A stretch of DNA of 64,000 nucleotides from NCBI RefSeq assembly GCF_023612255.1, contig NZ_CP063231.1:1656001-1720000 (forward strand), given 5' to 3'. Shown piece after piece: positions 11,036-52,167 of the stretch. The notes below the pieces were generated by a model, which did not search any database, was not told the DNA's origin, and was given only the letters and a program-made list of their open reading frames with translations. How positions within the stretch are numbered: the first letter of the stretch is position 1; every line of letters starts with the position of its first letter. This DNA is from Luteibacter flocculans (GTDB taxonomy: Bacteria > Pseudomonadota > Gammaproteobacteria > Xanthomonadales > Rhodanobacteraceae). A program made the position numbers and the translations under genes.

Positions 11036-13222
11036 TCAGGGGACCAGGGGCTCGTCGCGGCACGTGGCCGGCAGGTACTTGGGCTCTACGCCCTCGCCCG
11101 AGCAGCTCCAGGCCACGCCGTTGCCCTCGACCCGGGGCGTCAGCACGAGCGTAGCGCCGTCCAGCTTGGCGTCGGTCTTGTGCGGCGGCGTGGCGTCCAT
11201 GGTGACCACGATCTCGCCGCCGGGGCCCACCTCGACGGCGCCGGCATAGTCGTTGCCCAGCGTCTCAGGGGCACCCAGGCCGGCGGCACGGTTGGTCGCC
11301 GGGAATTTGCCGCTGGTCTGGCGGCGCTCGGCCACGGCGGCCTTCGCCGCATCGGCGGCGCCCAAAGCGTTGCTGACCTGACTGCGCAGCGTGTATTCCT
11401 GGTACTGCGGTACCGCGATGGCGGCCACGATCGCCACGCCCGCCACGGCGCCCACGCCCCCGACCTCGCCCACCAGTTCCACCGGGCTCTGCTCATAGGT
11501 GAACGCGACGCCGAAGGTGTCGTTGTCGACTTCCACCGCGGCACCCATCACGCCCTTCTCGGGCAGGTTCAAGGTGTGCGCCGAGGGCAGGGTGGTGATG
11601 TCGAGGTCGGCACCGACGGCGGTGCCCAGGATCTGCAGGATCTGGATATACGAGTAGTAGGCCTCGCGCTGCGCGCCGTGCGACGTGGCCGTATAGCCGA
11701 TCAGCGTGCGTCCGCCCGGATAGGCGCGGGCCTTGAACCAGTCGTCCAGGGACGTATCCGGCTTGGCGGCGACGCGGTCGGAAAGCGCCTGGGGCACCTT
11801 CGCCATCACGACCCAGTCGCCGTCCTCGATCCAGTACGAGCGCCCGCCGAGGCGGGAAAGAAAGCTCATGAAGGGCCTGAGCGAGGGATCCACGTGCGCG
11901 ACGTCCTCGTCGTCCATGCCGGGGCCGGGCATCGACAGCCAATGCACCTTCGTGCCGTCCACGGTCGACTCGCCCGTCTTCCAGCCCTTGGCCGACATCG
12001 CCTCGATGCGCGCGTACCAATCCTTCCGGTCCGGCGTGCGCATCGCGTAGAACAAGCCGGCGTCGTCGGAGAAGACGATCATCTCGGGGCCGAACCAGCG
12101 GAACCAGTCCGAGGGCGTCGCACCGTAGCGGGTGCGCATTTTTTCGACGCCCTCGTGGTACTTCTTCGCCGCGTCCGCGCCGAAGTCGAGGTTGAGATTG
12201 TCTTCGAAGGTCTTGTATGCCTGGGCCGTCGGCAGCGAGAGCGTCATCGCCCAGTGGGGTTCACCCGCCGACTTCAACGTCGGGGCAAAACTATGCGGCG
12301 CGAGGTAGGAGAGGGCTCGTGCCTGCGGTGCATGCACGATCACGCGGAACTGTGCGCGGCCATCGACGGTGCCGCCGCCGAACGCGACTGCGTCGGCCTT
12401 GGAGGCGAAGTCGGCGGGCAGCTTGCCGAACGGCGAGTCGCCGGCTTGCGCCGCGGCCACGCCGCCCACGCCTCGGACCGTTACCCAGCCGAACAGGCCT
12501 TCGCCCGACGTGTCGATGCGCGGCTCCAGCGCAGACAGCGTGGCAGGTGCCGTTGCCGCGGTGGATTTGGCGAAGGTGGCGGCAAGCTCGTCGAGCGTCG
12601 CCTTGTCGCTTGGTGCCTGCGCGGACTGCGTGACCCAGAGGCGGTGCTCGGCGGCGACGTAACGGACGGCGCCGCCGCTGGTGAGCTGGCCGTAACCCTG
12701 GGCATCCAGTGGCGCGGCGAGTACCGGCGTACTAAGTGCCGCCATGCGCGCGTTGAACGCGTCCACACTCGGGTAATCCAGCAGCGCGGTCAGCACCAGG
12801 CGCGAGGTCGGCGCGGGAATGCCCAGCGGGTCGACGAGCGCCACTTCCACCGGCGAGCGCAGGTCGCTCAGCAGCAGATTGACCATCGGCGCGATTTTCA
12901 TATCGGCCAGCACCTTGTCCTTGGCCATGCCGTCGCGGATGCGCTGGACCGCGTCGAGGTGCGCCTTGCTCGACAACGCCGCGTCGAGCGGACGACCGTT
13001 CGGCACACCGCCAATCATTGCCCACGGCGACGGTATACGCAGGTAGGCCACGGTCTGCGCCGGTAGGTGCTGGCGCATCCACGCCGGTGCGGCAATGGCT
13101 GCTTGTGCGGCGGCAACGGCCTTCGGATCGGCGGTGGGCGCCTCGTCTTTCTTGTGGCACGCGGCAAGACCGAGTGCCGTGACGATGGCGGCGGACAACA
13201 GGACGGTACGACGGGCAATCAT
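11036..13222 (-). CDS. Lipoprotein with C-terminal type IV pilin-like domain
   Basis: 728-residue protein. I chose the ATG at 13222 because AAGGGGA lies seven bases upstream; an in-frame ATG at 13243 lacks this. The N-terminus is a lipoprotein signal (MIARR, hydrophobic core, LAAC lipobox). Residues of about 30-585 form a large domain I do not recognise, with YLRIP and WIEDGDWVVMAK stretches faintly like DUF3352 proteins. Around residues 588-622 a Gly/Ala/Val-rich hydrophobic helix runs into IAVPQYQEYTLRSQV, which matches the alpha-1 helix of PilA-type pilins after the leader. The last 100 residues resemble a pilin globular domain ending in a disulphide loop, WSCSGEGVEPKYLPATC. The prepilin peptidase site (GFTLIE) is absent, so this cannot be a normal pilin. 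It follows the lipase gene in the same orientation, 106 bp away. Confidence 0.85.
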   Translation of the reverse strand: MIARRTVLLSAAIVTALGLAACHKKDEAPTADPKAVAAAQAAIAAPAWMRQHLPAQTVAYLRIPSPWAMIGGVPNGRPLDAALSSKAHLDAVQRIRDGMAKDKVLADMKIAPMVNLLLSDLRSPVEVALVDPLGIPAPTSRLVLTALLDYPSVDAFNARMAALSTPVLAAPLDAQGYGQLTSGGAVRYVAAEHRLWVTQSAQAPSDKATLDELAATFAKSTAATAPATLSALEPRIDTSGEGLFGWVTVRGVGGVAAAQAGDSPFGKLPADFASKADAVAFGGGTVDGRAQFRVIVHAPQARALSYLAPHSFAPTLKSAGEPHWAMTLSLPTAQAYKTFEDNLNLDFGADAAKKYHEGVEKMRTRYGATPSDWFRWFGPEMIVFSDDAGLFYAMRTPDRKDWYARIEAMSAKGWKTGESTVDGTKVHWLSMPGPGMDDEDVAHVDPSLRPFMSFLSRLGGRSYWIEDGDWVVMAKVPQALSDRVAAKPDTSLDDWFKARAYPGGRTLIGYTATSHGAQREAYYSYIQILQILGTAVGADLDITTLPSAHTLNLPEKGVMGAAVEVDNDTFGVAFTYEQSPVELVGEVGGVGAVAGVAIVAAIAVPQYQEYTLRSQVSNALGAADAAKAAVAERRQTSGKFPATNRAAGLGAPETLGNDYAGAVEVGPGGEIVVTMDATPPHKTDAKLDGATLVLTPRVEGNGVAWSCSGEGVEPKYLPATCRDEPLVP

Positions 13223-13328
13223 TGCTCTTCCCCTTGGATTCATCCGGCTCCTGCCGGGCGGGGGAAGGATAGCAGCGCATGGCGTCCGTTCCGGCAGTGC
13301 GGAGCGAACGCGATGCGTCCTTTGCGAG

Positions 13329-14015
13329 CTAGAGAAGATTCACCTGCTGCGTCGCGGTGTACCAGAGCAGGCCGTAGTGCCCATAGGGGAAGGTGTAGCT
13401 CGCCGTTTCGCCCTGGATCTGTGAGGTATGCACCCCATAGACCAGGCAGACACCGCCGTAGCAGTTGATCTCGTCGGCATAGGACTTGAACGAATACATC
13501 TTCGTGCCGAAGCGATGTCCCTGCATGCCGTTGAGCAAGGGACTGTTCACCGAAAGCCCCCACGCGCCGCAGGTGCTGGTGGCGACGTTGAACGGATAGG
13601 TGCCGCAGCTCCACAGGCCGTGGAAGGCGCCGGCGATGCCGATGAACGTATTCACCGAGCCCGCCGCGCCCATCACGTCGATCTCGTGCGCGGCCAGCGT
13701 GGCGCCCATCGAATGCCCGATGACGTCGATCTTGCCGGTACACGACGAGGCCAGCGCATCGAGGATGGCCTCGCGGACCGGGGTCTCCTCACTGCCGTTG
13801 TGGTCGTTGCATGCGGCGCAGAGACCGTTGCCCCAGCTCGGCGCGATGATCTGCGACTCGCTGTAACCGCGCTGCCGCAGCAGATCATGGGTGGCCTGGA
13901 AATCGGACGGACTGCCGGTGTTGCCGTGTACGAGTACGACCGTATCGACACAGGCGGCGTGGGTGGAACCGCAGACGAGCAACAGCAGGGCGAACAGCAG
14001 CATCGTGGAACGCAT
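13329..14015 (-). CDS. Secreted triacylglycerol lipase/esterase, alpha/beta hydrolase
   Basis: 228-residue exported alpha/beta hydrolase. A signal peptide ends near residue 20 (CGSTHA-A). The oxyanion segment VLVHGNTGSPSDF is followed by nucleophile S102 in GHSMGA, and several cysteines suggest disulphides in the mature enzyme. This is the small Lipase_2-like (LipA/EstA) pattern. I placed the start at 14015, where CGGAGG precedes the ATG; a much longer open frame upstream is only read-through of another gene. It starts 29 bp after the GntP-family permease gene, so the two are likely one operon, hydrolysing an ester outside the cell and importing the acid. Confidence 0.87.
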   Translation of the reverse strand: MRSTMLLFALLLLVCGSTHAACVDTVVLVHGNTGSPSDFQATHDLLRQRGYSESQIIAPSWGNGLCAACNDHNGSEETPVREAILDALASSCTGKIDVIGHSMGATLAAHEIDVMGAAGSVNTFIGIAGAFHGLWSCGTYPFNVATSTCGAWGLSVNSPLLNGMQGHRFGTKMYSFKSYADEINCYGGVCLVYGVHTSQIQGETASYTFPYGHYGLLWYTATQQVNLL

Positions 14016-14044
14016 GGCTTGCCTCCGTAGTGTGTGCGCGCCGG

Positions 14045-15442
14045 TCAGACCACCCCAAGCGCGTAGTAGGCGACGATCGCCACGAAGACCGCGAGGGTCT
14101 TGATGACGGTGATCGCGAAGATGTCCCGGTACGACTGCCGATGGGTCAGTCCGGTCACCGCCAGCAGCGTGATGACGGCGCCGTTGTGCGGCAGCGTGTC
14201 CATGCCGCCCGAGGCCATCGCAGCAATGCGGTGCAGCACTTCCATGGGGATACCCGTGGCCTGCGCGTTCTGCACGAAGCTTTGGGCCATGGCGCCGAGC
14301 GCGATGCTCAGGCCGCCCGACGCCGATCCGGTGATACCCGCCAGCGCGGTGACCGACACGGCTTCGTTCACCAGCGGATTCGGAATGGCGTGGAGTGCGT
14401 CGGCCACGGTGCGGAAGCCGGGCAGGGCGGCGATCACGGCGCCGAAGCCGTACTCGGACGCGGTGTTCATGGACGCGAGCAGTGCGCCGCTGACGGCAAG
14501 TTTGCTGCCTTCGGCGAAGCGCCGCGAGACCGGGCGCCAGGCGAAGGCGAGCACGCACAGGATGCCCAGCAGCAAGGCGCCCTCCACGGCCCAGATCGCG
14601 GCGACCTTCGCGATGTCCTGCACGACAGGCGGCGCATCGCCGACCACGGTGGGGACGAAGGACTGCGTGCTGCCATAGAGGCGCGGGATAGCGAGCGTCA
14701 GCAGCTTGTTCGCGATGCCGACCACCAGCAACGGCAACAGCGCCACGAGCGGATGGGCAAGCCGCGCGTCCACGAATGCCGCCGGTTCGTTGGCAAGGTC
14801 GTCGCCATAGCCCTCGCCCGCACGCGCGGCCGCACGCCGCCGTCGCTCCAGATAGAACAGGCCGACACCGAGGATGAAGATCGAGCCCAGGCTGCCGAGC
14901 CACGGCGCCGCCCAGGTGTCGGTGCCGAAGAACGCGGTGGGAATGATGTTCTGGATCTGCGGCGTGCCCGGCAGCGAGTCCATGGTGAAGGTGAAGGCGC
15001 CCAGGGCGATCGTGCCGGGGATCAGGCGCTTGGGAATACCGGCCTGGCGAAACAGTTCCGCCGCGAACGGATACACCGCGAACACCACGACGAACAGCGA
15101 GACGCCGCCGTAGGTGAGCAGCGCGCAGACCAGCACGATCGACAGGATGGCGCGCTTCTCGCCGAGCAGACCGATGGTACCGGCAACGATCGCACGCGAG
15201 AAGCCGGACAGCTCGATCAGCTTGCCAAACACGGCGCCCAGCATGAACACAGGAAAGTACAGCTTGAGGAAGCCAACCATCTTGTCCATGAACAGGCCGG
15301 TGAACATCGGTGCCACCAGACCGGGATCGGTGAGCAGCACCGCGCCCAGCGCGGCGACCGGCGCAAACAGGATGACGCTGTAGCCGCGGTAGGCCACCAG
15401 CATCAGGAAGGCCAGCGCGGCCAGCACGATCAGCAATGCCAT
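14045..15442 (-). CDS. GntP-family permease, possibly for hydroxybutyrate
   Basis: 465-residue polytopic membrane protein with about 12 hydrophobic segments, starting at MALLIV. Family features include the repeated PVFMLGAVFGKLIE and DSLPGTPQIQNIIP segments and the later GITGSASGGLSIALG run, as in GntP/DctM-like carboxylate permeases. GntP members import gluconate, and some import D-3-hydroxybutyrate. Because the divergent side carries a PHB depolymerase and a hydroxybutyrate-oligomer hydrolase, I infer hydroxybutyrate as substrate; this rests on context only. It is first gene of the permease-lipase unit and divergent from the TonB receptor. A GGGGA site lies somewhat far upstream of the ATG. 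Confidence 0.85.
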   Translation of the reverse strand: MALLIVLAALAFLMLVAYRGYSVILFAPVAALGAVLLTDPGLVAPMFTGLFMDKMVGFLKLYFPVFMLGAVFGKLIELSGFSRAIVAGTIGLLGEKRAILSIVLVCALLTYGGVSLFVVVFAVYPFAAELFRQAGIPKRLIPGTIALGAFTFTMDSLPGTPQIQNIIPTAFFGTDTWAAPWLGSLGSIFILGVGLFYLERRRRAAARAGEGYGDDLANEPAAFVDARLAHPLVALLPLLVVGIANKLLTLAIPRLYGSTQSFVPTVVGDAPPVVQDIAKVAAIWAVEGALLLGILCVLAFAWRPVSRRFAEGSKLAVSGALLASMNTASEYGFGAVIAALPGFRTVADALHAIPNPLVNEAVSVTALAGITGSASGGLSIALGAMAQSFVQNAQATGIPMEVLHRIAAMASGGMDTLPHNGAVITLLAVTGLTHRQSYRDIFAITVIKTLAVFVAIVAYYALGVV

Positions 15443-15518
15443 CGAAACGTTCGTCCCCTGTATCGGCGCATGCGTCCGTCGGACGGCGAGTATCCGCAGG
15501 CATAGGGCGGCGTGGCAC

Positions 15519-15532
15519 TGTACCAAGGTACA
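15519..15532. promoter_or_regulatory. Palindromic operator candidate between permease and TonB receptor
   Basis: Perfect palindrome TGTACC-AA-GGTACA in the divergent region between the GntP permease (start 15442) and the TonB receptor (start 15616). Symmetry partly extends outward (GGCAC to the left, GTGCC to the right, offset by a few bases). Its position suits an operator controlling both directions; the binding protein is unknown. Confidence 0.45.
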
Positions 15533-15615
15533 AGTGTGCCTCTGACGGCCGATTCCTATGCTTCGGTCATTCGGCGCCGAGGGGGCGCCGCGCATCGGTT
15601 ATCCGGGGGATGTCC

Positions 15616-17904
15616 ATGAAGCACGCACCGCTGACGCTGGCGATCGGCCTAGTTATCGGCCTCGCCGCCACGCTGCCGGCCAAGGCGCAGGACGCCGGCC
15701 AGGCGAACGCGCCGACGACGGAAGCGAAGAAGAAGCAGCAGGAAGCCACGCAACTGACCGAGGTAACGGTGAGCGCGCGCCGCCGCGAGGAGTCGCTGGA
15801 GAAGGTGCCGGTGGCGGTGAGTGCGTTCTCGGAAGAGGACATGCGCGATCTGCAGGCCACCAGCATCGATGCGCTGCAGGGCGCGGTGCCGAACATGAAC
15901 ATCGTGCAGGGACGCGGTTCGTCGTCGTCGGTCAACATCTTCATCCGCGGCATCGGCCAGCCCGATGCACTGCAGACGTTCGATCCCGGCGTGGGCATGT
16001 ACGTGGACGACGTGTACTACTCGCGCATCCAGGGTGCGCTCATCAGCCTGTTCGACGTCGATCACGTCGAAGTGCTGCGCGGCCCGCAAGGCACGCTGTA
16101 CGGCAAGAACTCCACCGGCGGCGCGGTCAAGGTCGTGACCAAGAATCCGGGCACCACGCCGGAAGGGTCGATCGAGGCCACCTTCGGCAACTACGGCCGG
16201 CGTGAGGGCCGCTTCTACGGATCGACGCCGCTGAGCAAGGACGGCGCCTGGTCCGCGTCGCTGGCCGGTGCGGTGACCCGTAACGACGGCTACGTTCACA
16301 ACTACAGCGGCCGCGATTTCAATAACGACAATACGAAATCGGTCCGCGGCAAGCTGCGCTTCCACCCGTCCGACACGTTCGACGGGGTGCTGACGCTCGA
16401 CTATACGAAGATGGATACGGCGTTGACGCTGGGCCAGCCGGTGTCGCCACTGAAGCGTACCGATCTGGTGTTCGGTTCGGTCACGCTCCTGCAGCCGAAC
16501 CTCGACGAGAAGTACAACTTCCACACGCAGACCTCGTTCCCTCCGGGTGACGGCCAGAAGCTCACGCACAAGGGCGTGGCGCTCAACATGAACTGGAAGC
16601 TCTCGGACCAGTGGAGTCTCAAGAGCATCTCGGCGTACCGCAAGCTCGACAGCGATTCCTACATCGACATCGACGCGTCGCAATACGAACTGGGCGATGT
16701 CTTCGTCGGTTTCCGTCAGAAGCAGGCCAGTCAGGAACTCCAGCTTGCATTCGACAACGGCAGCAACCTGCAGTCGGTGTTCGGCGCCTATTACCTGCGC
16801 GAGAACGTGCCGTCGACCCAGTACGCGTTTGCGGACGACCTGTTCGCCGTGGCCGGCCGCACGGTGCCGTTCCTGCGCACGATCGGCGACGATCTGACGA
16901 CGAAGAGCTGGGCCGGCTTCGCGCACGTCAACTGGGAGTTCGTACCGACCTGGACGCTGGCGGCTGGTATTCGCTACAGCAAGGAAAGCAAGGACTACGA
17001 CCGCACCACGAGTACGTTCTGGGGCGCGCCGCTGACCGCATTGAACGAGACCGTGCCGCTGTCGCGGAGCAAGGACTGGAACGCCTGGACGCCCACGGTG
17101 AGTCTGCAGAAGCAGTTCGATCCGCAGACGATGTGGTACGTGTCCGCCAGCCGCGGCTTCAAGTCGGGCGGCTTCAACGGCCGCGCCAACTCGGCGGCCG
17201 AGGCGAAGACGGCGGAGTTCGATCCCGAATACGTGTGGACCTTCGAGACGGGCCTCAAGATGCGTAGTGCGGACAACCGCCTGCAGGCCAATCTCGCCGC
17301 GTTCCACAGCAACTACAAGGATTTCCAGGCCCGCGTGTCGGAGATCCAGAACCCGGGTTCACTTACCCCGACCTTTGCCTTTCCGGTGATCAACGCGGCG
17401 AAGCTGAAGATGGACGGTTTCGAAGCGGAAGGCGTGGCACTGCTGGGCGAGGGCACCCGCCTGAGCACGCAGATCGGCTACCTCAAGGCGAAGTACGACC
17501 GCTTCGACGATGCCCGCCTCGATCCGTCCAATCCGCAGTACAACCCGACCATTCACGACCACGTGCCGTTCTCGCCGAAGTGGACGGCGCGCGTGGCGGC
17601 GACGCAGACCTTCAACCTCGCCGGGGGCGCGTTGACGCTGGGCGCCGATGCGTCGTATCGCACGGAAACCTGGCTCAGCGTGGACAACTACGCCGCGCTC
17701 AGCCAGAAGGCATACACGCTGGTCGGGGCGTTCGGCATCTTCGATTCCGGCGACGGTCACTGGCAGTTCCGTGCCGGCGTGCGCAACGCCACCAACAAGG
17801 TCTACAAGACCGATGGGCAGGAGTTCTCCAGCGTGGGTAACATCCGCACGGCGTACTACGGCATGCCGCGCAATTACTACGCGTCGGTTCGCTACAACTT
17901 CTGA
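15616..17904 (+). CDS. TonB-dependent outer-membrane receptor
   Basis: 762-residue receptor. The start at 15616 has GGGGGA six bases upstream and opens a signal peptide (MKHAPLTL, Ala-rich end at KAQ). A TonB-box-like TEVTVSARR precedes the plug domain (VPVAVSAFSEEDM, IRGIGQPDA, VEVLRGPQGTLYGKNSTGGAV). The rest is a 22-strand beta-barrel type ending in YYASVRYNF with terminal phenylalanine. Its stop overlaps by one base (TGATG) a possible upstream start of the PHB depolymerase gene, so the two are co-transcribed. Relatives import siderophores, vitamins and carbohydrates. Here the linkage points to uptake of hydroxybutyrate oligomers, which is inference. Confidence 0.92.
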   Translation: MKHAPLTLAIGLVIGLAATLPAKAQDAGQANAPTTEAKKKQQEATQLTEVTVSARRREESLEKVPVAVSAFSEEDMRDLQATSIDALQGAVPNMNIVQGRGSSSSVNIFIRGIGQPDALQTFDPGVGMYVDDVYYSRIQGALISLFDVDHVEVLRGPQGTLYGKNSTGGAVKVVTKNPGTTPEGSIEATFGNYGRREGRFYGSTPLSKDGAWSASLAGAVTRNDGYVHNYSGRDFNNDNTKSVRGKLRFHPSDTFDGVLTLDYTKMDTALTLGQPVSPLKRTDLVFGSVTLLQPNLDEKYNFHTQTSFPPGDGQKLTHKGVALNMNWKLSDQWSLKSISAYRKLDSDSYIDIDASQYELGDVFVGFRQKQASQELQLAFDNGSNLQSVFGAYYLRENVPSTQYAFADDLFAVAGRTVPFLRTIGDDLTTKSWAGFAHVNWEFVPTWTLAAGIRYSKESKDYDRTTSTFWGAPLTALNETVPLSRSKDWNAWTPTVSLQKQFDPQTMWYVSASRGFKSGGFNGRANSAAEAKTAEFDPEYVWTFETGLKMRSADNRLQANLAAFHSNYKDFQARVSEIQNPGSLTPTFAFPVINAAKLKMDGFEAEGVALLGEGTRLSTQIGYLKAKYDRFDDARLDPSNPQYNPTIHDHVPFSPKWTARVAATQTFNLAGGALTLGADASYRTETWLSVDNYAALSQKAYTLVGAFGIFDSGDGHWQFRAGVRNATNKVYKTDGQEFSSVGNIRTAYYGMPRNYYASVRYNF

Positions 17905-17918
17905 TGCGGGGGATTCCA

Positions 17919-18938
17919 ATGAAACGTCTGTTGCTGGTGGCCATGCTTGTTGCAGGAGGTGCGTCGGCCGCCGACGCTCCGGCGAAGCTGCCGTCGCTCA
18001 AGATCGATCCGGCGCGCGTCACCGTGGCCGGCCTGTCGTCAGGCGCGTATATGGCGACACAGGCGCAGGTCGCGTATCCGGACGTGTTCCACGGGGCCGC
18101 GCTCGTGGCCGGTGGTCCCTATGGCTGCGCGGGCGGCAAGCTGGAGACAGCGCTCGGTAGTTGCATGAAGGGCACGCCGGCACCCGACGTCACTGCACTG
18201 GCGACGCAGGCGCGCACGCGTGCGGCCAAGGGCGAGATCGGACCGCTGTCCAAGCTCGCCACTGCGCGCATCTACGCCTTGCATGGCGCTCAGGACGCGC
18301 TCGTTGCACCCGTGGTGGGTCATGCGTCCGCGGGCTTCTACGAGGCGCTGAAGAAAGCCGATCCGGCGTTGGCCGGCATGACCGTGACCGACGACGGCGA
18401 TCGTGCCTTTGCGCACAATCTGCCCATTAGCGCTGCGGGGGACGATTGCGGCAAGTCGGTCTCGCCGTTCCTCGGTCATTGCGGTTTCGACGCGGCCGGC
18501 GAGATCTTCGCCAAGCTCTACGGCAAACCGGCGCATGCCGCGGGCACGGCCAAGGGCGAGCTGCGCGCCTTCGATCAAGACGCCTATCGCAGCGATGGCA
18601 AGGACGCCTTCTTGGCCGCCGGCGGTTTCGTCTATCTGCCGCCCGATTGCCTTGCCGGCAAGCCGTGCGGCGTGATGGTCGCCTTGCACGGCTGCAAGCA
18701 GAATGCCGATCTGGTCGGCAAGGCCTTCGTCGAGGACGCCGGTTTCAATCGCTGGGCGGACGTGTACGACGTGGCCGTGCTGTATCCTCAGACGCGCGCA
18801 GTGTTCGCGCCATTGAATCCGCAAGCATGCTGGGACTGGTGGGGATATTCGGGAGAAAACTACGACACCCGCGCGGGCGTGCAATTGCGCTGGCTGGTCG
18901 ATGCATTGCATGGCCTGGGCCTGCCCGCCGTGAAATGA
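17919..18938 (+). CDS. phaZ: Extracellular PHB depolymerase, circularly permuted type
   Basis: 339-residue exported esterase. The signal peptide ends around residue 18. The lipase box is near the N-terminus (G38-L-S40-S-G42), with D126 and H166 as likely triad partners, while the oxyanion segment LHGCKQN and NPQACWDWWGY lie near the C-terminus. That reversed order matches the circularly permuted single-domain PHB depolymerases (Penicillium funiculosum type); there is no separate linker or substrate-binding domain. The start at 17919 is preceded by GGGGGA; an ATG at 17904 overlaps the TonB-receptor stop but lacks a ribosome site. It should cut polyhydroxybutyrate to oligomers, which the receptor gene upstream and the oligomer hydrolase at 23078 could then handle. 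Confidence 0.9.
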   Translation: MKRLLLVAMLVAGGASAADAPAKLPSLKIDPARVTVAGLSSGAYMATQAQVAYPDVFHGAALVAGGPYGCAGGKLETALGSCMKGTPAPDVTALATQARTRAAKGEIGPLSKLATARIYALHGAQDALVAPVVGHASAGFYEALKKADPALAGMTVTDDGDRAFAHNLPISAAGDDCGKSVSPFLGHCGFDAAGEIFAKLYGKPAHAAGTAKGELRAFDQDAYRSDGKDAFLAAGGFVYLPPDCLAGKPCGVMVALHGCKQNADLVGKAFVEDAGFNRWADVYDVAVLYPQTRAVFAPLNPQACWDWWGYSGENYDTRAGVQLRWLVDALHGLGLPAVK

Positions 18939-18999
18939 CCATGCGCCTCGGGCGCCGCGTTGTCAGCGCCCGTCACGGGCCTGAACACGGAGCCCTCTC

Positions 19000-21900
19000 G
19001 TGAGCCCCTGGCTCGTCACGACCGCCGCCGGACTGTGGTTGTGCATGCTGTTTGCAGTGGCGCTGTTCGGCGAGCGGCGCCCCGCGTTCCTCGAACGCCG
19101 ATGGGCGATCGTCTATGCGCTCTCGCTGGCGATCCACTGCACGTCGTGGACGTTCTACGGCACGGTGACCCAGGCATCGCGCTCCGGCTGGTGGCTGCCG
19201 CCGACCTTCATCGGCGCCATCCTCATGTACGCCCTGGCGGTCGGGGTGCTCCGACGCCTGGTCGTCATGGCGCGCGATTACAACGCCGGCTCGGTCGCCG
19301 ATCTCGTTTCCGCACGGCTAGGCCGCCATCGGGGGCTGGCGGCGCTCGTCACCGTGGTGATGCTGATCGGCATCGTTCCCTATCTTGCATTGCAGTTGAA
19401 GGCCGTGGCGATGAGCTATGGCCTGCTTGCACGCGGCCGAGATGCAGAGGCACCCGCATGGCAGGACAGCGCACTCTACGTCGCCTTGTTGATGGCCGCG
19501 TTCGCCATGCTGTTCGGTACGCGTCGAGCCTCGGCCATGGCGCACAACCGCGGGCTGGTGCTGGCGATGGCCTTCGAGTCGTTGTTCAAGCTCGGTGCCA
19601 TGCTTGCGCTGGGGAGCCTGCTGCTTGGCCCGGGCCCTGACCCCGAGGCCATGGCGCGCGTCGCAGCGATGCCGCGCGACGCGAGTGGCTTCCCGGCATT
19701 GATCCTGCTCGGTGCGCTGGCGATGTTCACGTTGCCGCACCAGTTCCATGCCGGCATGGTCGAGTGTCGCGATGTCCGCCATGTGGCGACGGCGCGCTGG
19801 TTGTTCCCGCTCTACATGCTGCTCATATCGCTGCCCATTCTGCCGCTGGCGCGGCTGGGCGATGCGACGCTGGCGCCGCTCGGCGTGCCTTCGGATCTCT
19901 ACGTGCTGGCGCTGCCGTTGTCGCGCGAGCAGGGAGGGCTTGCCTTGCTTGCCTTCCTCGGCGGTCTTTCCGCCGCGACGAGCATGGTGGTGGTCGCGAC
20001 GCTCGCATTGAGCCTCATGGTCGTCAACCATTTCATCGCGCCGGTGCGCGTGCTCGGTGGCTGGGGCCGCGACGAGCGTGGCGATCTACGCGGCCAGGTC
20101 ATCAATCAGCGTCGCCTCGCCATCGTGGGCGTGATCCTGCTCGCCTGGGCGTATAGCCGCATGCTGGCGGGCAACGATGCGCTGGCCGATATCGGTGGTA
20201 TCTCGTTCTCCGCACTCGCCGGTCTAGCGCCTGCACTGCTGTTGGCCGTGTACCGGCCACGAACCGGAGCGCGCGCCGTGGGTGCCGGACTCGCCGTCGG
20301 CACGCTGGTCTGGATGTACGTGGTGTTGCCAGCGCTGGTGACGCCGGCCCCGAGCTGGGTGGCCGAAGGCCCCTTCGGCATCGGCTGGCTCGCCCCCGAC
20401 CGGCTCCTCGGTCTCGACGACTGGAGTCGCATCGGCCGCGCGGTCGTGCTCGGCATCGGCGCGAATCTCGCGACCGTCGCGCTCGTAGCGTCGTCGCGCT
20501 ACGGCCGAGCCACGCAGCCTTCGGCGGAACTCGGTGGCGTAGATGCGGGCGATCTGCGTGCACTCGCCGCACGTTTCCTGCCGGTCGATCGCGTGGACGC
20601 GCTCTTTGCGGATGCCGCGCCGCGCGGCGCAGCAGGCAGCGCACTCGCAGCACTGGTGGAGCACGAGCTGGCGGCGGTGATAGGTGCAGGCTCGGCGCGT
20701 CTGTTGCTGCAAGTCGTGCATCGCCAGCGCCAGGACGAACTCGATACCGTGGCCGCCATCGTGGGTGAAGCCACGGAAGATCTGCGCTTCAACCAGCGCG
20801 TCCTCGAAGCCGCGCTGGAGACGATGAGTCAGGGCATCTGCGTCGTGGACGCCGAATTGCGCCTGGTGGCATGGAATCGGCCGTATGCCGATCTGTTCGG
20901 TTATCCGGCCGACATGCTTCGTGTGGGACGCCCCGCGGCGGACCTCGTTCGCCACAACATAGCGGGCGGCCTCATCGGTCCCGGTGACGTCGATGCGCGG
21001 GTGGCGCGACGCATGGCCTGGATGCGCTCCGGTTCACCGCATCTCGCGGAGCGACGTTTTCCTGATGGCACCGTCGTGGAAATCCGCGGCAATCCCATGC
21101 CGGGCGGCGGCTACGTCGCCACCTTCACTGACGTGACCTCGTTCCGCGAAACGGAGGAGGAACTGATTCGCGCGAACGAAACGCTGGAACTGCGCGTGGC
21201 CGAACGCACCGTCGAACTGCAGCGAGCCACCGCCGAAGCGCGTCAGGCGAACGAGGCGAAGAGCCACTTCCTCACCGCGGTGAGCCACGATCTGCTGCAA
21301 CCGCTGCATGCGGCGCAGCTCTTTGCGCACGCCTTGCGTACCGGCCATGGCGACGCAGACACGGCGCGGCATCTCGATGGCGCGTTGACCGCCACGGAGG
21401 ACTTGCTGGCAGGCCTGCTCGATATCGCGCGGCTCGAAGGCGGGCGGTTGTCACCGCGAATCGCGGACGTGGCGCTTACGGAGGTGCTGGGGCCGCTGGC
21501 CGCGGAAGGGCGCGCGCTCGCGGCGGAGCGCGGTATACGCTTTCACTGCGTACCGACCCGGATCTGGGTGCGCACAGACCCGCAGCTTCTGCGCCGCGTC
21601 GTGCAGAACTTCCTCGCCAATGCCTTGCGCTACGCCGAGGGCGGGCGCGTGCTGCTCGGTTGCCGGCGTGTCGATGGCAACGTGCGGATCGAGGTGTGGG
21701 ATACGGGGCCGGGCATTGCGGCATCCGAGCACGACGTGATCTTCGAAGCGTTTCGACGTGGTGAGTCGGCAGCCGGGCAGGGGCTTGGCCTCGGTCTTGC
21801 CATCGCCGAGCGCACGGCCGCGTTGCTTGCCCATCCGCTGGGGCTTCGCTCGTGGCCGGGGCGCGGCTCGGTATTCGAGGTCAGTGTGCCGGTGGCTCCG

Positions 21901-22305
21901 AGGGGTCGTGCCACACCGACTGCGCTGCCAGCGCCGCTGGCGGTGCCTACCGGTCATGCGATCGTGATCGACAACGATCCCGTCGCCCTGGCGGCGACCG
22001 CGAGTCTTCTGCGTAGTCTCGGTTGGACCGTGGATGCACTGCGCTCGCCGCAGGGGGACGCACAGACTCCCGACCTTATGATGCTCGATTACCACCTTGA
22101 CGGCGGGCGAACGGGGCTCGATGCGCTCGCGGTGCTGCGTGAGCGCTACGGGGACGTGCCGTCCATCTTCGTCACCGCCGACCGCGACGCGGACCTGCGT
22201 GCGCGCTTGCAGGAAGCGGGAGGAAGCGTGCTGTACAAGCCGCTGAAGCCGCTGGCACTGCGCCAGGCGATGCAGCGGCTGGTCGCACGCCGCGAACCTT
22301 CCTAA
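19000..22305 (+). CDS. Hybrid sensor histidine kinase with SLC5 transporter-like input domain
   Basis: 1101 residues with GTG start (GGAG nine bases upstream). Residues 1 to about 480 form a sodium:solute symporter (SLC5) module with about 12-13 transmembrane helices (HCTSWTFYGTVTQASRSGWW, DYNAGSVADLVS). Next come a linker, a PAS domain (about 590-710), a HisKA domain with phospho-acceptor H763 in SHDLLQP, a HATPase domain (N-box QNFLANALRYAEG, G-boxes DTGPGIA and GLGLGLAIAE) and a C-terminal receiver with D1030 and KPLKP. This is the CrbS/MxtR-type architecture, known in relatives to control acetate/acetyl-CoA metabolism with a LuxR-type partner. The convergent response regulator 15 bp downstream is the likely partner. 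Lying between PHB hydrolases, it may sense hydroxybutyrate or acetate. Confidence 0.93.
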   Translation: MSPWLVTTAAGLWLCMLFAVALFGERRPAFLERRWAIVYALSLAIHCTSWTFYGTVTQASRSGWWLPPTFIGAILMYALAVGVLRRLVVMARDYNAGSVADLVSARLGRHRGLAALVTVVMLIGIVPYLALQLKAVAMSYGLLARGRDAEAPAWQDSALYVALLMAAFAMLFGTRRASAMAHNRGLVLAMAFESLFKLGAMLALGSLLLGPGPDPEAMARVAAMPRDASGFPALILLGALAMFTLPHQFHAGMVECRDVRHVATARWLFPLYMLLISLPILPLARLGDATLAPLGVPSDLYVLALPLSREQGGLALLAFLGGLSAATSMVVVATLALSLMVVNHFIAPVRVLGGWGRDERGDLRGQVINQRRLAIVGVILLAWAYSRMLAGNDALADIGGISFSALAGLAPALLLAVYRPRTGARAVGAGLAVGTLVWMYVVLPALVTPAPSWVAEGPFGIGWLAPDRLLGLDDWSRIGRAVVLGIGANLATVALVASSRYGRATQPSAELGGVDAGDLRALAARFLPVDRVDALFADAAPRGAAGSALAALVEHELAAVIGAGSARLLLQVVHRQRQDELDTVAAIVGEATEDLRFNQRVLEAALETMSQGICVVDAELRLVAWNRPYADLFGYPADMLRVGRPAADLVRHNIAGGLIGPGDVDARVARRMAWMRSGSPHLAERRFPDGTVVEIRGNPMPGGGYVATFTDVTSFRETEEELIRANETLELRVAERTVELQRATAEARQANEAKSHFLTAVSHDLLQPLHAAQLFAHALRTGHGDADTARHLDGALTATEDLLAGLLDIARLEGGRLSPRIADVALTEVLGPLAAEGRALAAERGIRFHCVPTRIWVRTDPQLLRRVVQNFLANALRYAEGGRVLLGCRRVDGNVRIEVWDTGPGIAASEHDVIFEAFRRGESAAGQGLGLGLAIAERTAALLAHPLGLRSWPGRGSVFEVSVPVAPRGRATPTALPAPLAVPTGHAIVIDNDPVALAATASLLRSLGWTVDALRSPQGDAQTPDLMMLDYHLDGGRTGLDALAVLRERYGDVPSIFVTADRDADLRARLQEAGGSVLYKPLKPLALRQAMQRLVARREPS

Positions 22306-22320
22306 CCCGCGCGCGGACCG

Positions 22321-22974
22321 TCAGGGTTCGTTGCTGCCGAGGTCCAGTGAGCGCAGCAGCACACCCGCCTGCGTGCGATTGCGCACTTCCAGCTTTTCGA
22401 AGATCGCGGTCACGTGCGCTTTTACCGTGCGTTCCTGCACGCCGAGGCGATCGGCGATCTGCTTGTTGAGCAGACCTTCCGCGAGCATGGAAAGCACGCG
22501 GAACTGCTGCTCCGTCAGCCGTGAGAGTTTCGCGGCGAGTTGCGCGTCGCCGGCATCGGCGGGCAGGGCAGCCACCGCTTCCGCCCAACCCGTCGGCAGC
22601 CAGTGACCCTCTTCCAGCACGCTGCGCACGGCCTCGGCGATGGCCGACGGATCGGCGCTCTTGGGCAGGAAGCCGGCGGCACCATGGGCGAGCACACGGC
22701 GCACCACCGAGGGTTCGTCGTGCGCGGACACCACCAGCACGGCCACGCCAGGAAACTGGCCGCGCAAGGCGGCGAGGCCGGAGAGGCCGCGACTGCCTGG
22801 CATGCGCAGGTCGAGCAGCACGAGATCGGTATCGGGCGCGGCGGCGAGTGCGCCGAGCAGGCTGTCGAGGTCCGCAACGTCGCCGACCTCGGCATCGGGC
22901 ACAGCGGCAGCCGCCGCCTGGCGCAAGGCCGCGCGGAAGAGAGGATGGTCGTCGGCAACGAGGATGCGATTCAT
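22321..22974 (-). CDS. LuxR-family response regulator (CrbR-like)
   Basis: 217 residues. The receiver domain has D8 and D9, phospho-acceptor D55 (VLLDLRMPG), S83 and K105. A LuxR/GerE helix-turn-helix occupies about residues 150-210 (LTEQQFRVLSMLAEGLLNKQIADRLGV split around the turn, then RTVKAHV). Length and order match NarL/CrbR-type regulators. It is convergent with the SLC5-hybrid kinase gene, with only 15 bp between the stops, a layout suggesting a functional pair. Targets may include the adjacent hydrolases and receptor, but no binding site can be proven here. Confidence 0.93.
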   Translation of the reverse strand: MNRILVADDHPLFRAALRQAAAAAVPDAEVGDVADLDSLLGALAAAPDTDLVLLDLRMPGSRGLSGLAALRGQFPGVAVLVVSAHDEPSVVRRVLAHGAAGFLPKSADPSAIAEAVRSVLEEGHWLPTGWAEAVAALPADAGDAQLAAKLSRLTEQQFRVLSMLAEGLLNKQIADRLGVQERTVKAHVTAIFEKLEVRNRTQAGVLLRSLDLGSNEP

Positions 22975-23077
22975 CGCCCGCGACGGTAGCCGTGTATCGC
23001 CGCCGCGTCGAGTGCGCGCGGATCGTGCTGCCCTTTCGTACGATGGCGGGCGGCGGTGCGCTTGCTATCGTGCACCG

Positions 23078-24919
23078 ATGTCACGCATCTTCCCCCTGGC
23101 CGTCGTCGCCGCCTTTTCGTTCGGTGTGCTGTCCTGCGCGACGGCGCCCGCCACGAGGAAAGGCTCCATGTCTGCACCTGACCATTTCGGCGATGTCCGC
23201 GTTACCGAGCATCGCCATGGCGACGACCTGCTGAGCGCCGGTCTGGGCCTGCGCGGTCTCGCCGGCATGCCCAGCGCCTTCGCCAACCCGTCGGCGCCCA
23301 CGCCCGCGGAACTGCGTCGTCGCGCGATTCAGAGCAGTTGGAAGGGCATCGCCGATCTCGGTCCGCTGGGCGGCTTCGGTACCGTGTATGGCGCAGTGCC
23401 GGCAGTGCCGGGGCGCGAGTTCACCGCGTTCGCGACGCTCCCGGGCGCGCATGCGCCTCACCGTGTACTGGTCCAGGTGCCCGACGACTTCGATCGCACC
23501 CGGCGCTGCCTGGTGGTCACGGCGTCGTCCGGTTCCCGCGGCATCTACGGCGCCATCGCGCTGGCTGGCGGCTGGGGTCTTCCGCGCGGTTGCGCGGTCG
23601 CCTATACGGACAAGGGCACCGGCGCAGGTTATTTCGATACCGCCGAAGGCACGGGCGTCCGGCTGGACGGTACGCGCGCCAAAGCCGGCGAGGCGCCCCT
23701 GGAATTCGAGCCTGTTGGTGTTGCAGCCGACGCTGGCATCGCGGTGAAGCACGCGCACTCGGGCGACAACCCGGAGGCCGATTGGGGCCGCCACGTGTTG
23801 CAGGCAGCGCGCTTCGGGCTCGCCATGCTCGACCGCGCCTTTCCGAACGAAGCGCCGTTCACGCCCGCGAACACGCGCATCATCGCTACCGGTCTTTCCA
23901 ACGGCGGCGGCGCGGTGCTGCGTGCCGCAGGCGACGACAGCGAAGGCATCCTCGCCGCCGTGGTCGCCCTGGAACCGAACATCCACGTGGCCGGTCGCGG
24001 CCGGCCGTTCTATGACTACGCCACCGAGGCGGCGCTGCTGTTGCCGTGCGCCCTCGCAGCGCCTGAGTTCGATGGCGTGCCGTTCGCCCGTGTGGCTCAT
24101 GTGGCGCCGCCGGCATGGGCGATCCGCTGTGCGTCGTTGCGCGCACACGGTCGCCTGTCCGCCGTGATGCCCGGCGCGCAGGCCGCGGAGGCTCTGGCCA
24201 TGCTGCGTGCGTCCGGCTGGCAGGACGACGCGCTGGCCGTCGCCGCCTCGTCCACGTCGCTGGATCTGTGGCGCGCCGTCACCGCGGCGTATGCATCCGC
24301 GTATCTGAAGCGACCGGCGGGCGCCATGCCTTGCGGGTTCTCTTATCGTGCGCAGATCGCGGGAATCGCCACGGGCGTCGATGCTGCCATTCGCGCCGCA
24401 TGGTGGTCTGATGGCTCGGGCGTGCCGCCCGGGGCCGGCGTGGTGCTTGCTGGTGGGACCGACTTTTCACCCGACCCGGCCTTGCCCGGCAACCTCTGCC
24501 TGCGCGAGCTGTGGACGGGCCAGGGCGACGACGCGCGCCGGCTCCGCGATGCCGTGGACGCTACGGCGGCGGCCTTGCCGCGCGTGGACCTGCCCATCCT
24601 CGTGGTCCACGGGGCGCAGGACGGCTTGATCCCCGTCGCTTTCAGCTCCGATCCGTACGTGAAGTGGCTGCGCGCCTCGGGCCGCTCTCCCGTGTTCTGG
24701 AAGGTGCCGTACGCCCAGCATTTCGACGCCTTCCTGGCCTTTCCCGACTTCGGCGACCGCCATGCGCCGCTGCTGCCGTTCGGCTACGTAGCGCTCGACC
24801 GCGCATGGGCGCACCTGGCCGACGGCAGGCCATTGCCGGAAGACGCCGCCGTGCGCGATACGCGCCCCCGCGGCGCGGGAGCCCTGGACGCCGCCATGCT
24901 CGCCTTGCCGGAACGTTGA
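23078..24919 (+). CDS. D-3-hydroxybutyrate oligomer hydrolase (3HBOH family)
   Basis: 613-residue exported hydrolase of the D-(-)-3-hydroxybutyrate oligomer hydrolase family, which cuts soluble oligomers from PHB breakdown to monomers. Visible features: a lipoprotein-like leader (MSRIFP, hydrophobic core, VLSC at 17-20), the conserved GLPRGCAVAYTDKGTG segment (about 167-182), lipase box G272-L-S274-N-G276 followed by GGAVLRAAG, and the C-terminal VHGAQDGLIP with KVPYAQHFDAF carrying the presumed Asp and His. Length is somewhat below the roughly 650-700 of some relatives. The ATG at 23078 has a poor ribosome site but is required by the leader. It is divergent from the response regulator, 103 bp away. 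Confidence 0.92.
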   Translation: MSRIFPLAVVAAFSFGVLSCATAPATRKGSMSAPDHFGDVRVTEHRHGDDLLSAGLGLRGLAGMPSAFANPSAPTPAELRRRAIQSSWKGIADLGPLGGFGTVYGAVPAVPGREFTAFATLPGAHAPHRVLVQVPDDFDRTRRCLVVTASSGSRGIYGAIALAGGWGLPRGCAVAYTDKGTGAGYFDTAEGTGVRLDGTRAKAGEAPLEFEPVGVAADAGIAVKHAHSGDNPEADWGRHVLQAARFGLAMLDRAFPNEAPFTPANTRIIATGLSNGGGAVLRAAGDDSEGILAAVVALEPNIHVAGRGRPFYDYATEAALLLPCALAAPEFDGVPFARVAHVAPPAWAIRCASLRAHGRLSAVMPGAQAAEALAMLRASGWQDDALAVAASSTSLDLWRAVTAAYASAYLKRPAGAMPCGFSYRAQIAGIATGVDAAIRAAWWSDGSGVPPGAGVVLAGGTDFSPDPALPGNLCLRELWTGQGDDARRLRDAVDATAAALPRVDLPILVVHGAQDGLIPVAFSSDPYVKWLRASGRSPVFWKVPYAQHFDAFLAFPDFGDRHAPLLPFGYVALDRAWAHLADGRPLPEDAAVRDTRPRGAGALDAAMLALPER

Positions 24920-35723: not shown

Positions 35724-36179
35724 CTAGATACATGTCGGCGTTTTGTTCCTACGTCGGATCGCTATCCCGGCGCCAAGGCAAAACGCAACGGATGAAATCG
35801 CGCCAAAGACTGCACCGGGTAGAATTCCGCTGATCGCCGAGTTCCACGCAATCTGCTTGGCAAATGACTGATCTTTCATCTGCGGCCAGTAGTTCATCTC
35901 AAAGTTGAAGGCAGCCATAACGACGGCTCCGACAAGCACGCCAGCAAGGCAAAGTCGGATCGCGGTTAGCTGTCCCTTGGATCGCAGCCAAAGAGCAAGA
36001 GGCAGCCCGACGATCGTCGATGCAGCCAGGGAGATGGGCAATGCGACCAAAACGACTAGCAACGGTGGGACCATGATCCTGTCGGGTGACGATTCAAGGA
36101 GGGTCGCCAAGAGGGTAGGCGACACAGCGCCTGCGATCACGCCTATAAACAAGGGGCGAGCGTGCTGTGCGTGCTCCAT
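35724..36179 (-). CDS. Small membrane protein, function unknown
   Basis: 151 residues with four hydrophobic segments (about 10-30, 40-62, 72-95, 120-140). I chose the ATG at 36179 because GGAG sits eight bases upstream; a longer frame to 36239 has no such site. I do not recognise the family. It is the last of a run of minus-strand genes downstream of the RHS toxin gene, several of which look like immunity proteins, so a membrane immunity role is possible but unproven. Base composition is lower in GC than the flanking core genome. Confidence 0.65.
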   Translation of the reverse strand: MEHAQHARPLFIGVIAGAVSPTLLATLLESSPDRIMVPPLLVVLVALPISLAASTIVGLPLALWLRSKGQLTAIRLCLAGVLVGAVVMAAFNFEMNYWPQMKDQSFAKQIAWNSAISGILPGAVFGAISSVAFCLGAGIAIRRRNKTPTCI

Positions 36180-36246
36180 CACTTCGTCTCCGTCATTGGC
36201 TTGTCGGTGGTAGTTGGCGCTGGATCGGTTATGGCCCATGCCATGC

Positions 36247-36672
36247 CTAGCCAGCCAAGAAATTTCTGACTCGTCGGCTCAGGAAGAAATAAGCGCTCAG
36301 GGCTGCGAGCTGTGCAGTCGCAAAGAAGAGATCAAGGAAGTGATGGCGACTTGCGTAGCTGACGCCGTTTATCCCTTCGATCGCATAAGCAGCGATGTAG
36401 AACCCCGCGAAGCCGGATAGATAGGCTAGCCGACCGAGGCGCCGAGCTCGAAGCAACAAGATTCCCGCGCTGAAAAAAAGGCCAACCGCCGCAACGAGTA
36501 CGAGTCCGCTCCCGTTAACCCACCAGTCCCTAAGTTCGATCTTGCTGTGACCGACAACGGCGCCGCCTGGGATGATCGTCGCAGCTACCAGCAGCACCGA
36601 CATCAGCGAGAGCAACGTCAGAACCTTTAGAGGTCCAGGCATCCGCACAAAGTTGGCGGTGATGTCGTTCAT
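36247..36672 (-). CDS. Small four-helix membrane protein, function unknown
   Basis: 141 residues with four predicted transmembrane helices (about 15-35, 52-72, 82-98, 112-128) separated by short charged loops (RARRLGR, SRRV). The ATG at 36672 has AAGGGA upstream. It starts 18 bp after the stop of a DUF4279-like gene, so it is probably on that transcript. The family is not recognised. Its position in the RHS-linked array suggests an immunity or accessory role as a hypothesis only. Confidence 0.65.
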   Translation of the reverse strand: MNDITANFVRMPGPLKVLTLLSLMSVLLVAATIIPGGAVVGHSKIELRDWWVNGSGLVLVAAVGLFFSAGILLLRARRLGRLAYLSGFAGFYIAAYAIEGINGVSYASRHHFLDLFFATAQLAALSAYFFLSRRVRNFLAG

Positions 36673-36690
36673 GTCCAATCCCTTGCCGCC

Positions 36691-37032
36691 TCAATGCCGA
36701 TAGATCATCGAACCCTGGTCCAAATCGTTTCGCTGATGCGCGGCCGTACGTCGGTTGATGGATACAAGCATGCTGTTGCGATGCTCGTTTGATGACAACT
36801 TGCCTAGGATCTCATCAATCTGTCCACACAGGTCTTCTGGCTCTCGATCGCTGGCCGTTAGCCTCCACATGCCAGTTCTGGCGATGCTCACTCGCCCGGT
36901 TGAGTTGCCGAGTTCATCGCCCATGTGCTGAGAATGCGTAGGGCCGCTCCCAAGCATTGAGCTGATCTTGTCGGGCACGAGTAAGTCGCCAGCGATACGC
37001 AAGGTGGCTCTAGAGCGTTCAAAATACGGCAT
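36691..37032 (-). CDS. DUF4279-like protein, possibly C-terminally degraded
   Basis: 113 residues. The N-terminal three quarters fit the DUF4279 pattern: RATLRIAGDLLVPDKISSML, a THSQHMGDE turn, TGMWRLTAS, and EDLCGQIDEILGKL. The normal family tail is missing; the last 35 residues (NEHRNSMLVSINRRTAAH...) do not resemble it, so the gene may have lost its end by frameshift or be truncated. AGGTGA precedes the ATG. It is one of three DUF4279-like genes downstream of the RHS gene; I infer a past or present immunity role. Family assignment is by eye. Confidence 0.6.
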   Translation of the reverse strand: MPYFERSRATLRIAGDLLVPDKISSMLGSGPTHSQHMGDELGNSTGRVSIARTGMWRLTASDREPEDLCGQIDEILGKLSSNEHRNSMLVSINRRTAAHQRNDLDQGSMIYRH

Positions 37033-37236
37033 GTTTCACCTGCCTATCGTCAGAGTCCATGGTTCTCCTGGGTGAGCCACCGTTAACGTCGTCGACGAAA
37101 GGTCACCACATCTAAGTCAGCCACGTCTCGCCGGAAGTTGATGATCTGGATAGTTCGAACTGCGCTACGCGCAGAGTCTGGCTGTCTACGAAAAGCTGGG
37201 CGATCCAGCTGTCCCTGGCTGACGAGCTAATCAAGC

Positions 37237-37566
37237 TCAGGCGAGCTTTGGCCAGACCACGCCGATGACACTCACCAAGATGAGACATGCGATCCAAATT
37301 GCCCCTATGAATCTCCACATGGATCTTCGAAGCGCCAGCCCTTCGTTGGTCAGCAAGCGGTCGATGAATAAAGCATTCAGAGGATTCCCCATGGTCAGTC
37401 GCTCGTATTCAGTGCTTCCCTTGGGGGCGTATTTGACACCACCAACAAGGAATCGAACCACGAAGAAAGACAGGCAAAGCAGTGTGGCCGCAATCGTCCC
37501 GAAAAGTAGGTAGCTGGTCAACGTTTCTATCCCGAAAGCGGTTTCGTTAATCGTATTACCTTTCAT
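37237..37566 (-). CDS. Small two-helix membrane protein, function unknown
   Basis: 109 residues with two hydrophobic helices (about 18-40 and 88-106) around a soluble loop containing YAPKGSTEYERL. The ATG at 37566 overlaps the stop of the short open frame 37563-37751 as ATGA, which implies translational coupling if that frame is real. An in-frame GTG ten codons earlier is an alternative start. No family recognised. Placement is as for a membrane immunity protein next to a toxin fragment, which is inference. Confidence 0.55.
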   Translation of the reverse strand: MKGNTINETAFGIETLTSYLLFGTIAATLLCLSFFVVRFLVGGVKYAPKGSTEYERLTMGNPLNALFIDRLLTNEGLALRRSMWRFIGAIWIACLILVSVIGVVWPKLA

Positions 37567-37751
37567 CGATTCATTGATGCTGCGCCGAACCCGCACCCGC
37601 CGACGCTGCCCGGTCGGGGAGCGGTCGCTTCACCAGGTAACGGAAATGCTTCCCTCTTTGCTTCGTCGAGCCTCCTGATTTCCTCTTTGGCCTCCAGGGT
37701 GCTTTCCGAAAGGATCTTCTCGGGTGCACTGGTACGAAGACACACTCGCAT
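37563..37751 (-). CDS. Short open frame, possible toxin-tail remnant
   Basis: 62 codons, rich in charged residues (ILSESTLEAKEEIRRLDEAKREAF), ending GSVGGCGFGAASMNR. The stop codon overlaps the ATG of the downstream membrane-protein gene (ATGA), the arrangement used elsewhere here for the RHS toxin and its candidate immunity gene. No clear ribosome site or RHS core is present. It could be the 3' end of a lost toxin gene, or chance. Confidence 0.3.
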   Translation of the reverse strand: MRVCLRTSAPEKILSESTLEAKEEIRRLDEAKREAFPLPGEATAPRPGSVGGCGFGAASMNR

Positions 37752-37776
37752 CGAAGGAAGATGTTAACTAGGCGGG

Positions 37777-38127: not shown

Positions 38128-38258
38128 CGATATGTTTTCCTGGACGAGCGTTGATATTGCCATTGACCTGCGCACGAAAAATGTAGCCAGCACATGGTAA
38201 GTTCGATGTTATTGGGAGCGATCTAGTGGCGCTGAGTCGATGCTGTAGATCGGTACTA

Positions 38259-52022: not shown

Positions 52023-52046
52023 TACGCAACATGCAGTAAAAGTTAT

Positions 52047-52131: not shown

Positions 52132-52167
52132 AACGAAAGATCCGGAGTCCTCAACCGGATTGCAAAG

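Follow-up and report, generated by a model that had tools for sequence, protein, structure and literature searches.

Poly(3-hydroxybutyrate) (PHB) is a major storage polymer of bacteria and is also a bioplastic, and its degradation is usually pictured as the work of secreted enzymes that release shared monomers. The closest receptor described so far comes from a study of Alteromonas macleodii by Manck et al. (2020). In that work, PHB was predicted as the substrate of the TonB-dependent transporter (TBDT) MASE_06600 from its gene neighbourhood and a carbon-limitation transcriptome; the gene was raised under carbon limitation (log2 1.59) and has a PHB depolymerase next door (PMC7190382). A TonB-dependent receptor (TBDR) likewise adjoins a PHB depolymerase in the stretch of DNA analysed here, from the soil bacterium Luteibacter flocculans (64,000 nucleotides, hereafter the window; the genome is a single contig of 4.30 Mb). 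We consider it probable, at roughly 70%, that these genes form a TonB-fed locus for the use of PHB and 3-hydroxybutyrate (3HB) oligomers under a two-component system resembling CrbS/R, the transport step being one that we infer. As described there, MASE_06600 is a single case, with no family, operator or test (PMC7190382). What is new here is the family-wide locus and its operator, the PHB substrate having already been predicted for one TBDT. A preliminary description of the window had held that TonB-dependent uptake of hydroxybutyrate oligomers is not an established pathway; this stands in so far as the open-licence papers searched yielded no test of TonB-driven transport of PHB or 3HB oligomers, and needs amending for the prediction made on MASE_06600. 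The word 'hydroxybutyrate' was absent from PMC5436829, PMC9100948, PMC9927547 and PMC8402216, and the word 'TonB' from the first three of these and from PMC7830162.

Other described systems share parts of this arrangement. Carbohydrate loci of the Sus/polysaccharide utilization locus type and the CUT loci of Xanthomonas follow a common logic of surface or periplasmic hydrolase, TBDR, inner permease and own regulator; unlike in those loci, the cargo here would be a polyester, and no SusD-like lipoprotein family was found among the proteins scanned. A TBDR for a lignin-derived aromatic compound offers a precedent for a cargo that is neither sugar, vitamin nor siderophore, although it differs in substrate and locus (PMC6874591). 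The periplasmic PHB depolymerase of Rhodospirillum rubrum shares the type-2 catalytic domain, export and retention by the cell; no TBDR is named in the description of it (PMC2666664), whereas many of the homologues studied here bear lipoboxes. Finally, the acetate system CrbS/CrbR (MxtR/ErdR) appears to have in common with the window pair a transporter-like hybrid kinase, a LuxR-type regulator and a similar operator core, TACC-N3-GT (PMC5715377). The window pair differs from it in falling below the NCBIfam cut-offs, in being tied to PHB genes and in having a more nearly palindromic operator.

Family and profile scans recovered all the genes of the preliminary description at or near the places it had given them. 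The TBDR (15610, or 15616, to 17904, + strand) is followed by a type-2 (permuted) short-chain polyhydroxyalkanoate (PHA) depolymerase (17919-18938, +), the stop of the one and the start of the other being nearly in contact; an alternative depolymerase start at 17904 would overlap the TBDR stop. Next come a hybrid sensor kinase (19000-22305, +) and a LuxR-type response regulator (22321-22974, -), the latter transcribed divergently from the gene of a 3HB-oligomer hydrolase (3HBOH; 23078-24919, +). On the other side of the receptor lies a GntP-type permease, a probable importer of 3HB (14045-15442, -), with a lipase gene (13329-14015, -) at its 3' side. That GntP permease and lipase are present had been correctly noted, and their arrangement is corrected here, both being divergent from the receptor.

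To assess how far this order is conserved, we compared the best 80 of 503 confirmed loci (the named loci); the named relatives nearest to the window depolymerase were from three Luteibacter genomes (84-88% identity). The earlier statement that the receptor abuts a permuted PHB depolymerase holds well beyond the window, for the TBDR lay immediately 5' of the depolymerase in 79 of the 80, and in the sole exception (L178) the contig begins about 0.1-0.2 kb ahead of the depolymerase gene. Chance juxtaposition was rejected on this ground. The kinase was found 3' of the depolymerase in 73 loci (five stretches were too short and two lacked it) and the GntP permease in 70 (seven too short, three without); 3HBOH was present in 45 and the lipase in 19, both counts being uncorrected for contig ends. 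Among 150 genomes of the order, a type-2 match was obtained in 56 at E<=0.001, and in 40 it exceeded the NF050059 cut-off. TBDR, depolymerase and kinase were co-directional in 23 of 40 type-2 loci examined from the order, one of which (G091) scored slightly below the cut-off. Because eight loci are present in both the unnamed and the named set, counts across the two sets are not independent. Linkage, the family tree and the best-match tests described below together bear out the earlier view of one conserved PHB/3HB locus with the TBDR as a dedicated member. Two contigs carrying this Lysobacterales-type locus are labelled as Chitinophagaceae and Rhizobium metagenome-assembled genomes (L126 and L185), which are probably binning errors.

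Plug and barrel domains (PF07715, PF00593) and the structure match of an AlphaFold model (mean predicted local distance difference test score 81.5) identify the receptor as a TBDR. When searched against its own genome it gave 15 matches including itself, with one gene counted as two pieces; the next-best receptor reached only E 7.5e-38, with 26% identity across 769 residues, while identities of up to 36% were seen in partial matches of smaller length. In all five other genomes searched, which had been chosen for having a type-2 enzyme, the best TBDR match sat at the PHB locus, with identities of 63, 48, 35, 35 and 33% and E values no higher than 6.8e-84; the strongest of the remaining matches reached 4e-38. 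The receptors of the named loci were 57-95% (28 receptors) or 31-35% (51 receptors) identical to that of the window. A FastTree phylogeny of 110 rows, in which long branches were flagged, separated 96 family members from 14 paralogues with a support of 96; the TBDR belongs to a family of its own. Within it we distinguished two deep lineages, A (with the window receptor) and B, besides a third set of mixed make-up. The same slot is held in Rhodanobacter by lineage A in L124 and L132 and by lineage B in L123 and L125, and in Dyella by lineage A in L135 and by lineage B in L128, L138 and L140. One receptor has thus replaced the other in place, gene order and promoter being kept, which we take as a sign that the slot requires this receptor function.

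The divergent GntP/TBDR promoter contains a conserved palindrome, CACTGTAC[C/G]AAGGTACAAGTG, resembling the 'ACTU' site of CrbR; the window copy is GCACTGTACCAAGGTACAAGTG (15515-15536, +). At least 10 of the 12 core bases were found in 114 of 119 GntP/TBDR intervals (the window included and eight assemblies counted twice), compared with about one in shuffles that preserve base composition only. A matrix was also trained on 24 unique sites from the named loci alone and applied to the others: 28 of 29 held-out GntP/TBDR intervals scored at least 10. The corresponding figure for random 180-bp pieces cut from the same loci, some of which may hold true operator sites, was 17 of 870. The reading of the operator as a training artefact was rejected on this test. 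The same matrix flagged 53 of 62 regulator/3HBOH intervals in relatives. With a matrix built from all sites, the operator was detected in 19 of 38 regions 5' of the 3HB dehydrogenase gene and in three of four 5' of the type-1 depolymerase gene, and before the type-2 enzyme (0/122), the kinase (1/127) and the lipase (0/25) it was practically missing; in the window, type-2 enzyme and kinase lie 3' of the TBDR and the lipase 3' of the GntP gene. The operator went together with the kinase: over all loci it was present in 118 and missing in two stretches with a kinase, and present in 14 and missing in 57 without one; outside the named set the figures were 50 and two with a kinase, eight and 56 without, relatedness being ignored in both comparisons. 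Four CrbR ACTU sites fitted the matrix best at the expected (mirrored) place on one or other strand, with low absolute scores (-7.7 to 7.0); these fits were equalled by 5, 72, 0 and 7 of 2000 shuffles. A sigma-70 scan gave no match.

The preliminary description had listed a two-component pair, which is indeed present and can now be refined to the CrbS/MxtR-like kind with a probable SLC5-type kinase, tied to the shared operator. In the kinase, PAS, HisKA, HATPase and REC domains were matched. Its N-terminus had no Pfam match, and residues 8-447 matched the N-terminal portion of PDB chain 10ed_A, a histidine kinase, at E 8.6e-46. From this match and the domain layout that PMC9100948 and PMC5715377 describe, the transporter-like N-terminus is probably of the SLC5 kind, as in CrbS. 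The regulator (PF00072, PF00196) resembles ErdR/CrbR.

We then considered where cleavage might take place. The depolymerase belongs to the type-2 family (NF050059, 314 bits against a cut-off of 280) and its closest PDB chain is 2d80 (E 1.5e-46). It is permuted, the lipase-box Ser lying near the N-terminus and the PF10503 segment towards the C-terminus. S45, D131 and H171, presumably its catalytic triad, align with the chains of 2d80 and 2d81 (the latter having Ala at S45), and these columns were invariant in 17 rows. A linker and a substrate-binding domain, listed for dPHA-SCL depolymerases (PMC2666664), were not found in it, the domain match spanning residues 29-333 of 344 and leaving 11 residues after it. 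We thus classed the depolymerase, like that of R. rubrum, as having the catalytic domain alone. As read from its sequence, the window enzyme has a plain export signal and no lipobox; a lipobox occurs within the first 50 residues in 31 of 79 depolymerase relatives. The 3HBOH (PF10605, 409 bits against a cut-off of 27; no convincing PDB match for its profile) carries a lipobox in the window (..FGVLSC) and in 36 of 44 relatives, the pattern used having overlooked some visible cases. Lipoproteins whose residue after the lipobox Cys is other than Asp are sorted to the outer membrane. No Asp directly follows this Cys in any of these proteins, so that outer-membrane sorting would be expected. That many of the enzymes bear a lipobox speaks for cleavage at the cell and against free extracellular cleavage, and a cell-bound or periplasmic cut is more likely than an extracellular one. 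Free extracellular cleavage as the sole model is weakened by the lipoboxes and the missing binding domain, and the extracellular PHB cleavage of the preliminary description is therefore doubtful.

The window permease had no Pfam match at E<=10, nor had a 73% identical homologue (L072), and the best PDB match of its profile was unconvincing (E 0.063). It was called GntP-type because its homologues are so named: many on plasmids are annotated GntP, and of six 437-aa homologues with 37-41% identity, one that was scanned (L033, 38%) matched PF02447 with 39.8 bits. A homologue in Azospirillum (73% identity) stands beside 3-oxoacid CoA-transferase A and B and 3HB dehydrogenase genes, and one in Klebsiella (70%) beside 3HB dehydrogenase, thiolase and CoA-transferase genes. 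The permease slot holds either a 465-aa or a 437-aa GntP-type protein, 37-41% identical (L033, L035, L046, L065, L067, L070 and others), an alternation that resembles the receptor swap. Elsewhere in the window genome are genes for 3HB dehydrogenase (C1:4205 kb; NF009931 367 bits, cut-off 340; TIGR01963 303, just under 307) and CoA-transferase A (C1:2447 kb); P0009, the protein adjoining the dehydrogenase gene, had no Pfam match at E<=1e-8 and no NCBIfam match at 1e-20.

Taken together, these data are consistent with the following scheme. Depolymerase and 3HBOH lipoprotein, at or inside the outer membrane, would cut amorphous PHB and oligomers, and the TBDR would carry water-soluble 3HB oligomers across the outer membrane into the periplasm. 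The monomer formed there would then pass to the cytoplasm through the GntP-type permease and be burnt via 3HB dehydrogenase and CoA-transferase, whose genes are located away from this locus. The SLC5-type kinase and LuxR-type regulator may turn on the divergent GntP/TBDR promoter by binding of the regulator to the palindrome, which in many relatives could also switch the 3HBOH and 3HB dehydrogenase promoters.

In order to see the receptor family away from the type-2 enzyme, a profile from 25 receptors was used. At E<=1e-60 it matched in 145 of the 150 genomes of the order, a loosely drawn figure in which other TBDRs are included. We inspected 40 high-scoring loci of the order from genomes where no type-2 enzyme adjoins the receptor, neighbours being called by our own profiles. 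A type-1 depolymerase, 3HBOH or 3HB dehydrogenase lay near the receptor in 21 of these 40. The calls that were checked agreed with Pfam or NCBIfam: the type-1 enzyme at L223 scored 281 bits (cut-off 150) and the 3HBOH at L234 400 bits, and the 3HB dehydrogenases at L212, L231 and L288 were above the TIGR01963 cut-off. In a sample of the phylum, 47 of 398 genomes matched the profile at E<=1e-200, and 40 of 42 matches outside the order were examined; in other orders of the class, seven of ten receptors were linked, two of them with a type-2 enzyme.

Several observations weigh against the proposed role of the locus. Within the order, 17 of the 40 type-2 loci have no kinase; in 14 of these the TBDR is nearby in the opposite direction, and in the remaining three, two of them on short contigs, no TBDR was seen. 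Among the 40 order loci without the type-2 enzyme, 18 have GntP and/or kinase only, with no PHB/3HB enzyme nearby, and one (L248) has none of these neighbours. Of the 30 related TBDRs that come from other classes in the phylum, none has any such neighbours. Both members of the two-component pair fall below their cut-offs (kinase 342 against 400 bits for NF041832, regulator 224 against 390 for NF041830, ErdR), for which reason we term the pair CrbS/R-like and not CrbS/R. The second operator copy of the window, between the regulator and 3HBOH genes (23025-23046, -), is weak, scoring 7.4 or 8.0 by two matrices, and is not outstanding. By itself the operator pattern shows no enrichment in the window genome, which has 21 sites with up to two mismatches (the TBDR site being counted on both strands) against 18 for a reversed control; at the 20 loci retrieved in this way, the matrix gave 37.3 for the TBDR, 19.8 for lexA and 19.6 for 3HB dehydrogenase, whose site is 42 bp 5' of the reading frame and counts in favour of the proposed role. 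The lexA look-alike (L320, G000:C1:1737980, TGTACAAATGTACA) was set aside, as it is probably the operator of LexA itself. The 50 listed fold matches of the TBDR model are mostly siderophore receptors, a likeness that says little about cargo.

The other-class receptors bear on the alternative that survives best, namely that the TBDR imports another cargo, such as a different hydroxyacid polyester, an acyl ester or an acetate-associated compound, and shares the PHB locus only through a common acetate/3HB-type regulator. These family TBDRs of other classes (L289 to L318) are often found beside an MFS permease, a TetR regulator or an alpha/beta hydrolase; together with the three unlinked loci of the class, the counts were 15, 10 and 7 of 33. 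The wider family may therefore carry other cargo, and a single substrate for the whole family is disfavoured. This alternative also agrees with the 18 order loci that retain GntP or kinase, and with the control of acetate use by CrbS/R in other bacteria (PMC5715377, PMC8402216). We nevertheless regard it as unlikely for the locus in question, where the TBDR is paired co-directionally with the depolymerase in 79 of 80 cases and where, across the family, it adjoins three kinds of hydrolase for one polymer (type 1, type 2 and 3HBOH) as well as 3HB dehydrogenase. A decidedly less probable alternative is that the depolymerase acts in the manner of the R. rubrum periplasmic enzyme, on PHB of the cell itself or set free by its kin, the receptor serving material from lysed neighbours or nothing. 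The common type-2 catalytic domain (PMC2666664) and the lack of a binding domain fit such a role, and the strain may make PHA itself, since its genome holds a gene for a PhaC-like synthase (C1:2561 kb, L339; PF07167 24 bits, barely above the cut-off), in our reading perhaps of class III; however, the export signal should separate the enzyme from cytoplasmic granules, and the receptor adjoins the depolymerase too regularly. Ordinary secreted degradation, in which monomer would diffuse through porins and the TBDR would be a hitchhiker that serves iron or vitamin uptake, can draw on the siderophore-receptor folds and on the listing of type-2 enzymes of validated activity as extracellular (PMC2666664), but is very improbable given the 79/80 linkage, the palindrome that the receptor promoter shares with the 3HBOH and 3HB dehydrogenase promoters, and the finding of no Fur-like site beyond composition-preserving shuffles, on which an iron receptor was also rejected.

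The lipase, which the preliminary description had counted as a component of the locus, is present as a secreted class-2 lipase (Lipase_2, PF01674 57 bits) and is an accessory member, as its occurrence in 19 of 80 loci indicates; it is distant from PhaZ7 (NF050060, 49 bits, far under the cut-off of 450). Close by (11036-13243, -) is the gene of a protein of 735 aa whose N-terminus is lipobox-like (LGLAACHKK) and whose C-terminus holds a type IV pilin domain (PF00114, residues 620-729), an unusual domain order; relatives occur close to the same locus in L060, L133, L134 and L148. Two low-G+C islands of the window (36000-40000 and 52000-58000; 0.53-0.56 against about 0.65) are possibly foreign.

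Returning to a TonB-fed PHB/3HB locus, a broader form of it can be put forward tentatively, at somewhat less than even odds: a widespread 'selfish' uptake of polyester, in which a distinct TBDR family would import whole 3HB oligomers, lipid-anchored hydrolases would finish the cut in the periplasm, and an offshoot of CrbS/R would have exchanged acetate for a PHB/3HB regulon by means of its own operator. If the proposed function is true, oligomer uptake would be private and energised, and it would become understandable what depolymerases that are exported but have no binding domain, such as that of R. rubrum, are for. The TBDR family, the operator and the regulator would then become directly testable.

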